The notes under the pieces: model-generated
What the model saw: only the letters and a program-made list of their open reading frames with translations
What the model was told of the DNA's origin: nothing
The model's database searches: none
NCBI GenBank assembly: GCA_015654855.1
Contig: JAATGA010000317.1
Span: 1 to 36,130 of the forward strand
Length of the DNA: 36,130 bases
Direction of reading: 5' to 3'
Source of the DNA: Rhodobacterales bacterium
GTDB taxonomy: Bacteria > Pseudomonadota > Alphaproteobacteria > Rhodobacterales > Rhodobacteraceae
Program-made: the position numbers and the translations under genes
Shown: one piece after another, positions 12,591-16,873 of the stretch
Layout of the letters: every line of letters starts with the position of its first letter
Numbering within the stretch: position 1 is the first letter of the stretch

Positions 12591-12613
12591 ATATTTTCAC
12601 GACACGCGATTTT

Positions 12614-12651
12614 CCGCGGAACCCGCGGGCGGCGACGGCATTATTCCGTCG
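12614..12651 (+). terminator. Two adjacent perfect inverted repeats downstream of the PhnM-like gene (possible terminator, no T-run)
   Basis: CCGCGG-AAC-CCGCGG (12614-12628) and CGACGG-CATTATT-CCGTCG (12633-12651). Confidence 0.4.
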
Positions 12652-13115
12652 GACCGATATGGAGATGCAGCACATGCCCCGACCTGCCGACCGGATCGCG
12701 ACCACCGGCCCCGCCGGCGACGGATGCCCGACGACAGCCAGCGGGGTGCTTTCGCCATGCCTTCGGGGTTCAGGTCTCTGAGGTTTCATATCCGCAACCA
12801 GCGACGCGCGGCCGGACACGGGAAATTCCCGCGAAGGTCGTGCGCATTAAACAACAGGAAAGCCTTGATCCCCATGCTCGCTTTCATCGCCCCTGCGACC
12901 GGCCCGTGGATCCTTGCGGCCCCGGTCGTGCCCGGATGCGTGGAAGGTGGCGCGACGGGGGCCATCACCCCGGCCTTCCACCCGGAACGGGACGACAGCC
13001 GCCCGCGGCGGTCGTCCCGCGTGTTCGTAGCAAGTCGGGCAGTGTCACGCTCTTATTGACGAGTTACGGTCATCGGTTCGGGCCGTGACCGAATGTGTTG
13101 TGGTGTAACCAGTGC

Positions 13116-13146
13116 GGGCCGGGGCCTTTCGCCCCGGCCCTTTTTT
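13116..13146 (+). terminator. Strong intrinsic terminator without an obvious upstream CDS
   Basis: GGGCCGGGGC-CTTTC-GCCCCGGCCC followed by TTTTTT; perfect 10-bp stem. Confidence 0.9.
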
Positions 13147-13294: not shown

Positions 13295-13319
13295 GGAACC
13301 CGACCCGGATCGTTGCGTT
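13295..13319 (+). promoter_or_regulatory. Candidate EcfG-dependent promoter
   Basis: GGAAC (13295-13299) N16 CGTT (13316-13319), matching the GGAAC-N16/17-CGTT GSR promoter form. Confidence 0.6.
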
Positions 13320-13326
13320 GATCCTT

Positions 13327-13434
13327 GCCTGCGGAGCATAGCTACTTCCCTGGACCGCAGGCACGACCGGGTTATTTCGCCCGGACCGTAAACGCCGGAG
13401 GGAGGGTCCCCAGCCGCCCTCCGGCACCTTTACG
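13327..13434 (+). ncRNA. Candidate GSR-controlled small RNA, convergent with the phyR 3' end
   Basis: Downstream of the EcfG-like promoter: GCCTGCGG..20-nt loop with CUUCCCU..CCGCAGGC; CCGGG..CCCGG; large terminal hairpin CGTAAA-C-GCCGGAGGG..CCCTCCGGC-ACC-TTTACG. No convincing ORF on the + strand. Confidence 0.45.
13387..13434. terminator. Long hairpin between phyR and the convergent candidate RNA
   Basis: CGTAAA C GCCGGAGGG (loop) CCCTCCGGC ACC TTTACG; 6 + 9 bp arms; no clear U-tract on either strand. Confidence 0.5.
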
Positions 13435-13450
13435 CCCCCTGGCCACGCCA

Positions 13451-14257
13451 TCACGACGACAGCGTCTCGGTCGAGGCGAAGAACATCGCCTGGCTGACGG
13501 CCGAGCGGAGCTGATCCTCGGCATAGGGTTTGGCGATCAGGAAAGCCGGTTCCGGCTTTTGCCCGGTCAGCAGCCGCTCGGGGAAGGCGGTGATGAAGAT
13601 CACCGGAACATCGTCGAACTGACGCAGAATGTCGTTCACCGCGTCGATGCCGCTGGAATGATCGGCAAGCTGGATATCGGCGAGGATCAGGTCGGGCCGG
13701 TCCTGCGAGGCGAGGTCCACCGCCTGCGCCCGGGTGCGGGCGATGCCGGTGACGCGGTGGCCCATCTCGGACACGATCATCTGGATGTCGATGGCGATGA
13801 TCGCCTCGTCCTCGATGATCAGCACGGCGCCCGCGACGGAATCGGCCATTTCGCGTTTGGCGACCTGCACCAGATCCTCGGCGGCGCCGGCGTCGATGTC
13901 CATGATCCGCCCGATCTCGGCAAAGCGGAACCCCTCGATCGCGCTGAGCAGCAGGGCCTCGCGGCTGTTGCGGGTCAGGCTGGCCATATGCGCCTGCGCC
14001 TGGCCCGAAAGCCGGCTGTCGGGATCGCCCAGGGGCGCCCCCGCGCTGGCCCAAACCAGGTGAAAGGCGCGGAACAACGCGATCCGCGGATCCTCGCCCG
14101 CCAGCGCCCCGGCATCCTCAAGCAGCGCTTCGAGCGTCATCGCCGCGAAGCGGTCGCCGGTCGACTGGCTGCCGGTCAAAGCCCGGGCATAGCGCCGCAA
14201 AAACGGCAAATTCCGCGCTATGACCGAAACAGGATCGTCCGTTGCACCCGATTGCAT
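13451..14257 (-). CDS. phyR: PhyR-type response regulator (sigma-like domain plus receiver domain)
   Basis: MQSGATDDPVSVIARNLPFLRRYARALTGSQSTGDRFA...VLIIEDEAIIAIDIQMIVSEMGHRVTGIARTRAQAVDLASQDRPDLILADIQL; divergent from nepR-ecfG. Confidence 0.95.
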   Translation of the reverse strand: MQSGATDDPVSVIARNLPFLRRYARALTGSQSTGDRFAAMTLEALLEDAGALAGEDPRIALFRAFHLVWASAGAPLGDPDSRLSGQAQAHMASLTRNSREALLLSAIEGFRFAEIGRIMDIDAGAAEDLVQVAKREMADSVAGAVLIIEDEAIIAIDIQMIVSEMGHRVTGIARTRAQAVDLASQDRPDLILADIQLADHSSGIDAVNDILRQFDDVPVIFITAFPERLLTGQKPEPAFLIAKPYAEDQLRSAVSQAMFFASTETLSS

Positions 14258-14283
14258 ATAAGCTGCTCCATTAAGCGAAACCC

Positions 14284-14317
14284 GGGAACCAAACGCAACC
14301 TTCGACGTTTTGTTCCC
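14284..14317. promoter_or_regulatory. Symmetric bidirectional EcfG promoter between phyR and nepR
   Basis: + strand GGAAC 14285-14289, N16, CGTT 14306-14309; - strand GGAAC 14316-14312, N16, CGTT 14295-14292. Both share a dyad centred at 14300.5. Confidence 0.85.
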
Positions 14318-14344
14318 GAACCGAGGCCGGGATCTTACGATATC

Positions 14345-14509
14345 ATGTCTGGAAATACAGGAAAACGTCAGGATTCGGCCGCCTCCAGGGCCCTGATCGA
14401 GGACAATCTTCGCAAGGTCTATCAGGAGACGCTGAACGAAGAGATCCCCGACAAGCTGCGGGATCTGCTCGAACGCCTGCGCCAAACGCAGCAGGAGGCG
14501 GGAAAATGA
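14345..14509 (+). CDS. nepR: NepR anti-sigma factor
   Basis: MSGNTGKRQDSAASRALIEDNLRKVYQETLNEEIPDKLRDLLERLRQTQQEAGK; 54 aa, overlaps the ecfG start. Confidence 0.9.
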   Translation: MSGNTGKRQDSAASRALIEDNLRKVYQETLNEEIPDKLRDLLERLRQTQQEAGK

Positions 14510-15084
14510 CGGATCGCCCTCCGGCCGACGCCGTGCGCGACCCGCGCGACGAGTTGCCCGAGCATCTGCCGGCGATGCGCGCCTTCGCCATCAGCCTGAC
14601 GCGCAATTCGGCCTCGGCCGACGATCTGGTGCAGGACGCGGTGGTCAAGGCCTGGTCGAACTTCCACAGCTTTCAGCCCGGCACCAATATGCGGGCCTGG
14701 CTGTTCACCATCCTGCGCAACACCTTCTATTCCAACATGCGCAAGTCCCGGCGCGAGGTGCCGGACCCCGATGGCGCCTATTCCGCCATGTTGTTCGAGA
14801 AACCCGCGCATGACGCGCGCCTTGCCATGACGGATTTCCGCACCGCCTTCGATCAGCTTTCGCCGCAGCATCGCGAGGTGCTGATCCTGGTCGGCGCCTC
14901 GGGCTTTTCCTACGAGGATGTGGCGGAAATGACCGGCGTCGCGGTGGGCACGGTGAAAAGCCGCGCCAGCCGCGCCCGGCTGCGTCTGGCCGAACTGCTG
15001 CACCTTGAGGCGGGCGAGGATTTCCTCGGCGAGGACAAGACGACCGCCGCCGTGATGAGCCGCTCCGGCATCCAGGCGGCATGA
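14506..15084 (+). CDS. ecfG: EcfG-type general stress response ECF sigma factor
   Basis: MTDRPPADAVRDPRDELPEHLPAMRAFAISLTRNSASADDLVQDAVVKAW...LSPQHREVLILVGASGFSYEDVAEMTGVAVGTVKSRASRARLRL. Confidence 0.93.
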   Translation: MTDRPPADAVRDPRDELPEHLPAMRAFAISLTRNSASADDLVQDAVVKAWSNFHSFQPGTNMRAWLFTILRNTFYSNMRKSRREVPDPDGAYSAMLFEKPAHDARLAMTDFRTAFDQLSPQHREVLILVGASGFSYEDVAEMTGVAVGTVKSRASRARLRLAELLHLEAGEDFLGEDKTTAAVMSRSGIQAA

Positions 15085-16835
15085 GCGGCCGGACCCCAGG
15101 CCGGCGCGGGGGCCGGGGTCGGCTGGCGAACCGGTTCGGCGTCCGGCTCGGCCTGATCCTGACGCTGGCGCTGGCGCCGGTCGGGATCATCGCCTTGGTC
15201 CAGACCGCCGGACGCAACGACGAATTGCGCGCCCGAACCGAGGCCGCGCTGGCCGGCGCGACGCTGCGCGCCTCGGCCCCGAAGCTGGTCGAGATCGCCG
15301 AACTTCAGGCGGTGTCGCGCGGCCTGTCGCTTGGCCTCGATCCGCTGGCGGAGGCGGATTGCGCCGCCGTGGTGCGCGAACTGGCGGGCGAGGGCCGGCG
15401 CTATACGCTCGCCGCGATCTACAACCGGGCGGGGCAGGCGCGATGCAGTTCGACCCCGGGCTTCGCCGATGTCGCGGCCTGGCCGTTTCTGCCAGTCTTT
15501 CTTGACGGGGCGAAGCCGGCGTTGCGCCTGGTCGAGGGGGCGTCGCCGCTGCTGGTTGCCCTGACGCCGGTTTTCGACGCCGGCGGGGCCGTCTCCGGCT
15601 TCGCCGCAGTTGGACAGCGCCAGGTTCCGCCGCAGGGCGAGGCCCCTGCCGGCACGGCGCCCGAGGCCCCGGCACCGGCCGTCTTTCTGTATGACAGCGG
15701 CGGCAATATCCTCGGCTCGACCGTCGGGCGCGAGGCGATCCCCGGGTTTCTGCCGGATATGGCGACGCTGAGAGAGCATTTCCTGCTGGCCGACGGCATG
15801 TTCCCCGGGCAAAGCGAAAGCGGGACGGGACGGGTCTATTCCGCCAATACGCTGATCCCGGGCGAGATCCACGCGCTTGGCGTCTGGCCGGAACGAGCGG
15901 TGCTGACCGGGGCGCTGCACAGCGTTTCGCCCTTCCTTCTGCCGGCGCTGACCTGGGCGATCTGCCTGCTGGCTGCCTGGGCGGTGTCCGAGATGATGGT
16001 GACGCGGCACATGCGCCGCTTTCGCCGGGCGATCACCTCTTTCGCGCAGGGCGACCGCCGCGTCGGATCGCTCGCCATGGCCTCGGCCCCGACCGAGATC
16101 CGCGAGGCCGCCGACGCCTTCGAGCATATGACCGAAACCATCGTGAAGGATGAGGCCGACCTGGAAAACTCGGTCCGCGAGAAAGAGGCGCTGCTGCGCG
16201 AGGTGCATCACCGGGTCAAGAACAACCTGCAACTGATGGCCTCGATCATCAATATGCAGCTGCGCCGCACCCGGTCAGACGATGTGAAGCGCATCATCCG
16301 CCGGCTTCAGGACCGGATGCTCAGCCTCGCCACGGTGCATAACGGGCTGTTTCACACGGCGAGCATGACCGAGGTCCGGGTCGACACGCTGCTGTCCGGG
16401 ATCGTCGATCAGGTCGTGGTGTCGGGGGCGGGCGCGGGACAGAGGTTCCATGTCGAGACCGGGTTCGATCCGCTGGTCCTGTCGCCGGAACAGGTCGTGC
16501 CTCTCGCCCTGCTGCTGACCGAGGTTCTGGGTCGCGCGCTGCGATCCGCCAGGGGCGAAGAGCCGCATCTGGCCCCGTCCCTTCGCGTGACGCTGCGCGC
16601 CGAGGATGGCGGCGCCGTCCGGTTCGAGGTCGTCCATCTGCCCGCGGATGAGGGCTGCGACGAATCCGATCATGACGACGAGGCGCTCGGCACTCAGCTG
16701 ATCCACGGGTTCACCCTGCAACTGGGCGGGATCTACCGGCGCGAAGCCGACGGGCGGCACTGCGTCCAGCGGGTGGATTTCCGCCCGCAATCCGCGACGG
16801 GGCTGGCGGGAAAGCTGCCGCAGCCACAGGGCTGA
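15081..16835 (+). CDS. Membrane sensor of the HisKA_2/HWE histidine kinase family, degenerate ATPase domain
   Basis: TM1 near N-terminus, TM2 FLLPALTWAICLLAAWAVSEMM, H-box LLREVHHRVKNNLQLMASIINMQLRR; ATGA overlap with ecfG. Confidence 0.88.
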   Translation: MSGRTPGRRGGRGRLANRFGVRLGLILTLALAPVGIIALVQTAGRNDELRARTEAALAGATLRASAPKLVEIAELQAVSRGLSLGLDPLAEADCAAVVRELAGEGRRYTLAAIYNRAGQARCSSTPGFADVAAWPFLPVFLDGAKPALRLVEGASPLLVALTPVFDAGGAVSGFAAVGQRQVPPQGEAPAGTAPEAPAPAVFLYDSGGNILGSTVGREAIPGFLPDMATLREHFLLADGMFPGQSESGTGRVYSANTLIPGEIHALGVWPERAVLTGALHSVSPFLLPALTWAICLLAAWAVSEMMVTRHMRRFRRAITSFAQGDRRVGSLAMASAPTEIREAADAFEHMTETIVKDEADLENSVREKEALLREVHHRVKNNLQLMASIINMQLRRTRSDDVKRIIRRLQDRMLSLATVHNGLFHTASMTEVRVDTLLSGIVDQVVVSGAGAGQRFHVETGFDPLVLSPEQVVPLALLLTEVLGRALRSARGEEPHLAPSLRVTLRAEDGGAVRFEVVHLPADEGCDESDHDDEALGTQLIHGFTLQLGGIYRREADGRHCVQRVDFRPQSATGLAGKLPQPQG

Positions 16836-16847
16836 TCCGCCACAGCG

Positions 16848-16873
16848 GGAACCGGACACCGCCGCTACGCGTT
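16848..16873 (+). promoter_or_regulatory. Candidate EcfG-dependent promoter for the DUF1328 gene
   Basis: GGAAC (16848-16852) N17 CGTT (16870-16873); ATG at 16911 with GGAGG upstream. Confidence 0.7.

Follow-up and report, generated by a model that had tools for sequence, protein, structure and literature searches.

The window, by which we mean the whole 36,130-nt stretch of Rhodobacteraceae DNA analyzed here, contains a complete general-stress-response locus consisting of phyR, nepR, ecfG, and a gene for a HisKA_2/HWE kinase (Table 1). When cells are stressed, phosphorylated PhyR titrates NepR, freeing EcfG. The sigma-EcfG promoter pattern GGAAC-N16-SGTT occurs three times in this 36-kb window, compared with 0.42 occurrences expected, and only 2 of 100 shuffles reach three. 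Two of these sites, the promoters of nepR-ecfG and phyR, overlap and are divergent. The third is the GGAAC-N16-CGTT promoter proposed in the original prediction, which has the claimed spacer and aims at the tail of phyR, with 132 nt from the end of the promoter to the phyR stop; the phyR gene itself, whose stop had been placed just past the last of the predicted hairpins, is confirmed by Pfam. An intrinsic terminator further upstream insulates the small RNA (sRNA) gene against transcription from that side. We note that approximately 500 bp (12591-13115), from the upstream open reading frame (ORF) to this T6 terminator, lack a Pfam-supported gene, and that an extra EcfG-like site with a longer spacer (GGAAC-N17-CGTT, 16848-16873, + strand) lies directly 3' of the histidine kinase gene.

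Table 1. Features of the stress-response locus and of the candidate sRNA, with positions in the window
Feature	Position	Strand	Basis or remark
Intrinsic terminator, 10 GC pairs then T6	13116-13140	+	Terminator scan
Sigma-EcfG-type promoter, GGAAC-CCGACCCGGATCGTTG-CGTT	13295-13319	+	Pattern match; spacer exactly 16
Candidate sRNA, ~109 nt, three hairpins	13326-13434	+	Fold; start and end predicted
Hairpin 1, 9-bp stem UGCCUGCGG/CCGCAGGCA, 20-nt loop containing CUUCCCU	13326-13363	+	Predicted fold
Pyrimidine-rich, anti-Shine-Dalgarno-like loop segment CUUCCCUGG, putative seed	13345-13353	+	Sequence; C-rich promoter-proximal loops recur near phyR in other genera
Hairpin 2, CCGGGU/GCCCGG; loop lacks the C-rich character seen in relatives	13367-13384	+	Predicted fold
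Hairpin 3, long and G+C-rich, closing the structure; probable terminator lacking a U-tract	13387-13434	+	Predicted fold
phyR	13451-14257	-	Pfam PhyR_sigma2, PhyR sigma-like, Response_reg; convergent with candidate sRNA
EcfG-type promoter of nepR-ecfG	14285-14309	+	GGAAC-N16-SGTT pattern match
EcfG-type promoter of phyR	14292-14316	-	GGAAC-N16-SGTT pattern match
nepR, anti-sigma factor	14345-14509	+	Pfam NepR, 3e-12
ecfG, general stress sigma factor	14506-15084	+	Sigma70_r2/r4_2 and PhyR_sigma2 matches, plus position
HisKA_2/HWE sensor histidine kinase	15081-16835	+	Domain matches

Folding of the candidate RNA reproduces the three stems as they had been drawn, including the CUUCCCU loop and the hairpin ending at 13434, with a minimum free energy of -57.2 kcal/mol compared with -38.9 +/- 3.4 for shuffled sequences (z = -5.4); none of 200 shuffles is as stable. 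The fold of the complementary strand, for which a slightly longer stretch was used, is ordinary (z = -1.3). Directly after hairpin 3 comes CACCUUUACG rather than a U-tract, and this hairpin is not among the terminators called by the scan. No convincing coding sequence was found for the RNA on the + strand, again as predicted: the sole + strand ORF starting in the RNA (13325-14509) begins with TTG and reads through phyR in antisense and on into nepR. The window RNA has no match at gathering score among the Rfam 15 families, and SorX (RF02784), a Rhodobacter singlet-oxygen sRNA and thus also a Rhodobacteraceae stress sRNA, has no match in the window. Searches by blastn against 60 other genomes and the plasmid collection found no relative of the RNA; two short matches were rejected as promoter-like chance matches within coding regions.

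Because blastn finds no relative, phyR loci were compared instead, using 30 loci from named genomes. In the four closest (L004 to L007; PhyR 76-78%), which belong to one genus (that of G422, hereafter the sister genus), a convergent EcfG promoter lies 155-198 nt past the phyR stop and is followed by a structured stretch. Additional copies were sought in 19 genomes of this genus and two were found (L087 and L089), such that promoter and three-hairpin RNA are present at the equivalent place and orientation, within 155-205 nt past the phyR stop, in six of the seven sister-genus species with a close PhyR; the RNA is absent from the remaining one (L090). A PhyR match at E 1e-60 is missing from 11 of the 19 genomes, so the locus, including the sRNA, is patchy within one genus, with the caveat that some assemblies may be incomplete. 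Conservation of the promoter in relatives, whose absence the original prediction had named as a possible refutation, is thus seen at the syntenic site, with same-position counterparts of the 13295-13319 promoter in L004, L005, L006, L007, L087, and L089, and also in L265 (see below). All six sister-genus copies have the EcfG promoter and a long closing hairpin, which as in the window lacks a U-tract. In the clearest four, two hairpins with pyrimidine-rich loops precede the closing hairpin; their stems vary, but the loop sequences, CCGUCCUGUCCGAA and GCGUCCCC(C)UGUC, do not change among the four. The window RNA matches these RNAs in place, orientation, promoter, and hairpin order but is the most divergent copy, having one C-rich loop compared with two in its relatives. 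A multi-copy C-rich motif shows no excess in the sister genus.

A covariance model (R1) built from the clearest four sister-genus RNAs recovers the two left-out members, each as the top match of its 4-Mb genome (E values of 0.0056 and 0.007) and exactly at the promoter beside phyR, and finds nothing at E < 0.01 in 13 other sister-genus genomes. The left-out members score 29 bits, which is not far above the next match (L036, 26.9 bits). Covariation of the stems, the other property expected of relatives, is evident in the sister genus: in five aligned members, 14 of 34 stem pairs are changed on both sides and 96.9% of cells are paired, which none of 500 shuffles equals, although fitting the alignment to the structure biases it in favor of this result; when the structures are slid, pairing drops to ~42-52%. 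R1 does not recover the window RNA, with which only hairpin 3 aligns (10.1 bits). The suggested covariance-model search succeeded for the left-out sister-genus members and failed for the window RNA, whose kinship with the sister clade consequently rests on position, promoter, and architecture.

The R1 match at L036, which lies 1.3-1.4 kb from phyR, turned out to be another EcfG promoter followed by two hairpins, the 5' one C-rich, and a T7 terminator. We therefore surveyed 175 phyR loci, which were picked by PhyR similarity and in which copies within one lineage are not independent. In further genera, strongly structured RNAs follow EcfG promoters at L227 (z = -7.2), L224, L277, L124, L152, and L166, as well as at L130, L265, L132, L236, L216, and L112. 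In at least nine further genera, an EcfG promoter near phyR, mostly convergent to it, is combined with a promoter-proximal hairpin that has a C-rich loop. The L265 RNA lies, as in the window, in the interval (113 nt) from the EcfG promoter to the stop of phyR. Seven of the surveyed RNAs (L227, L224, L124, L277, L265, L236, and L166), from seven other genera, have two hairpins, the first with a 7- to 8-bp stem and a loop of 7-10 nt (for example, CCGUUCCCU, CUGUUCCC, CUGUCCCC, UUGUCCCC, and CUCCCGAA).

This association with phyR is also seen in a count of C-rich-loop hairpins that is independent of folding scores. Such hairpins, in promoter-proximal position, follow 14 of 166 EcfG sites located on the 3' side of phyR and convergent to it in the 175 loci. 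The corresponding counts are 3 of 486 for the remaining EcfG sites, 6 of 422 for permuted promoters, and 263 of 13520 (1.9%) for random positions. Five of the 14 are from the window and the sister genus, and another one (L135) is otherwise unstructured. Among structured sites, a C-rich motif is present in 13 of 19, compared with 1 of 12 after permuted promoters. Across 397 genomes, an EcfG promoter with a UGUCCCY pattern is overall not above a reversed-pattern control; among the matches listed, six are within 3 kb of phyR (G312, G010, G359, G006, G369, and G217), for which our own arithmetic gives an expectation of ~0.1. A k-mer enrichment after EcfG promoters was dropped, being dominated by phyR and nepR coding starts. 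At L174 (G066 C25), an EcfG-like promoter sequence precedes a match to SorX that stays below threshold (33.6 bits, E 1.6e-4). This candidate was rejected as a member of the phyR-linked class; it is SorX-like instead, and on a different contig from phyR in its genome.

The obvious point of comparison is GsrN of Caulobacter crescentus, which is sigma-T (EcfG)-dependent and pairs via a 5' C-rich loop (Tien et al. 2018, PMC5869019). BLASTn matches of GsrN are confined to Caulobacteraceae. EcfG-associated RNAs adjoin the stress locus both in that family and in several Rhizobiales, and putative EcfG-regulated GsrN-like RNAs are listed for Rhizobium, Sinorhizobium, Brucella, Rhodopseudomonas, and Bradyrhizobium; Rhodobacter goes unmentioned (PMC5869019). 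The window RNA resembles GsrN in its EcfG-type promoter, a near-consensus EcfG-binding site immediately 5' of the RNA; in its size near 100 nt; in the exposed C-rich loop of a 5' hairpin (CUUCCCUGG, within the 20-nt loop of hairpin 1 in the predicted structure); in a gene position adjoining phyR, nepR, and ecfG, as in most Caulobacteraceae; and in the presence of an Hfq gene in the genome that carries the window. It differs in having three hairpins, in a loop of ACUUCCCUGGA compared with six tandem C in GsrN, and in a katG-leader pairing that is not above chance. The Rhizobiales RNAs were similarly predicted from an EcfG site and a position beside the stress locus, with a C-rich 5' loop in Rhizobiaceae, but they are of another order and other sequences, and some have transcript evidence (PMC5869019), whereas the window RNA is predicted from sequence. 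By analogy, we regard the window RNA as GsrN-like in functional kind, and no sequence homology to gsrN is claimed. In the seven two-hairpin RNAs of the survey, the first hairpin resembles the arrangement reported for the GsrN 5' end, and these RNAs probably represent an undescribed class of GsrN-like sRNAs.

Since the promoter, position, and folded shape are kept in related bacteria, the window RNA is probably a GsrN-type regulatory RNA induced by stress. We think it likely that it is a free-standing sRNA gene of the general stress response, transcribed with sigma-EcfG and acting like GsrN through its C-rich loop. The original prediction of an EcfG-driven, structured, GsrN-like RNA fares well in the sister genus (promoter, covarying stems, and conserved C-rich loops) and in the architecture recurring in further genera; it fares less well for the window's own copy, with its diverged loops and its failure to be found by R1. 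Under stress, EcfG-RNA polymerase would start at ~13326, and the ~109-nt RNA would fold into three hairpins: one at the 5' end exposing ACUUCCCUGG, one in the middle, and a strong one at the 3' end. By analogy with GsrN, the CUUCCCUGG loop may pair with G-rich translation-initiation regions of stress targets, probably with Hfq, and so alter their translation or stability. Apart from the RNA, its own genome (73% complete) has 10 sites carrying the loop complement, which is below the count for the reversed control. The one Shine-Dalgarno-proximal 9-nt site, located 20 nt upstream of the sucC ATG, does not exceed chance (we estimate about one in eight). With the likely initiation region of katG, the strongest pairing is no better than shuffles (0.55).

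An alternative that we consider unlikely is that the promoter gives rise to a long readthrough transcript, antisense over phyR and continuing into nepR-ecfG, as a stress-induced antisense RNA or alternative leader in which the hairpins act as a leaky attenuator. The RNA is on the nepR-ecfG strand with antisense phyR alone in between, and the closing hairpins of the window and the sister clade lack U-tracts, which would permit such readthrough. However, the covarying stems and conserved loops indicate a short RNA as the product, T5-T7 follows the last hairpin in other genera (L130 and L277), and nepR-ecfG has its own EcfG promoter. An effect of the convergent sRNA on the 3' end of the phyR mRNA is possible. 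Rhodobacteraceae could have fast-evolving, syntenic sigma-EcfG sRNAs convergent with phyR that act at two levels: in trans by way of their C-rich loops, and in cis where readthrough or convergent transcription reduces phyR and supplies nepR-ecfG. One transcript would thereby couple the post-transcriptional output of the stress response to feedback on the switch behind it; this is a speculative and rather improbable extension.

It is also quite doubtful that the hairpins are instead part of the phyR mRNA, forming its minus-strand 3' UTR and terminator beside a coincidental EcfG-like site. The long hairpin is 16 nt past the phyR stop codon and, being nearly symmetric, could terminate transcription from both sides; if hairpin 3 alone acted as a bidirectional terminator, this would be compatible with the sRNA. 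Nonetheless, the minus strand is not unusually stable, and the promoter recurs at the equivalent site in six relatives and in L265. It is very improbable that the promoter serves a short unannotated peptide, as phyR-convergent EcfG promoters at ~300-350 nt in other genera do for a short protein-coding gene, given that the sole ORF starting in the RNA continues as phyR antisense and that variation among relatives preserves stems and loops, not a frame.

Returning to the GsrN-type sRNA that we favor, EcfG-regulated sRNAs have been predicted solely in other orders (PMC5869019); PhyR of Rhodobacter sphaeroides has a specialized role only, and by the authors' account there was as of 2018 no analysis of PhyR in other Rhodobacterales (PMC5830050). 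We found no EcfG or general-stress small RNA reported for Rhodobacteraceae or Rhodobacterales in the searchable literature, which covered few subscription papers. With the GsrN-type class known from Caulobacteraceae and Rhizobiales, the window RNA thus belongs to an established functional type that seems not to have been described in its own family so far. If true in approximately ten or more Rhodobacteraceae genera, a post-transcriptional arm would be added to the general stress response, and a conserved EcfG-driven C-rich-loop RNA beside phyR would supply ready candidates for GsrN-like function. For one genus, a searchable covariance model is gained.

The survey also revealed other candidate products of EcfG-like promoters. 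At L186 (G082 C2:363959-364023) and L198 (G132 C8:444068-444140), an EcfG-like promoter precedes a structured RNA with the common loop CUGUCCCUCGUUC and a T6-T7 terminator, possibly another stress sRNA. In many other Rhodobacteraceae (L011, L013-L016, L020, L022, L025, L029, L032, L041, L045, and L051), a convergent EcfG promoter located ~610-690 nt past the stop of phyR precedes a protein-coding gene with the C-terminus TADLITARSAFHEKAAWMLRAT, which looks Dps-like. In L125, L152, L159, L161, L166, L217, L229, and others, an EcfG promoter 300-350 nt past the end of phyR leads into a short membrane-protein gene.
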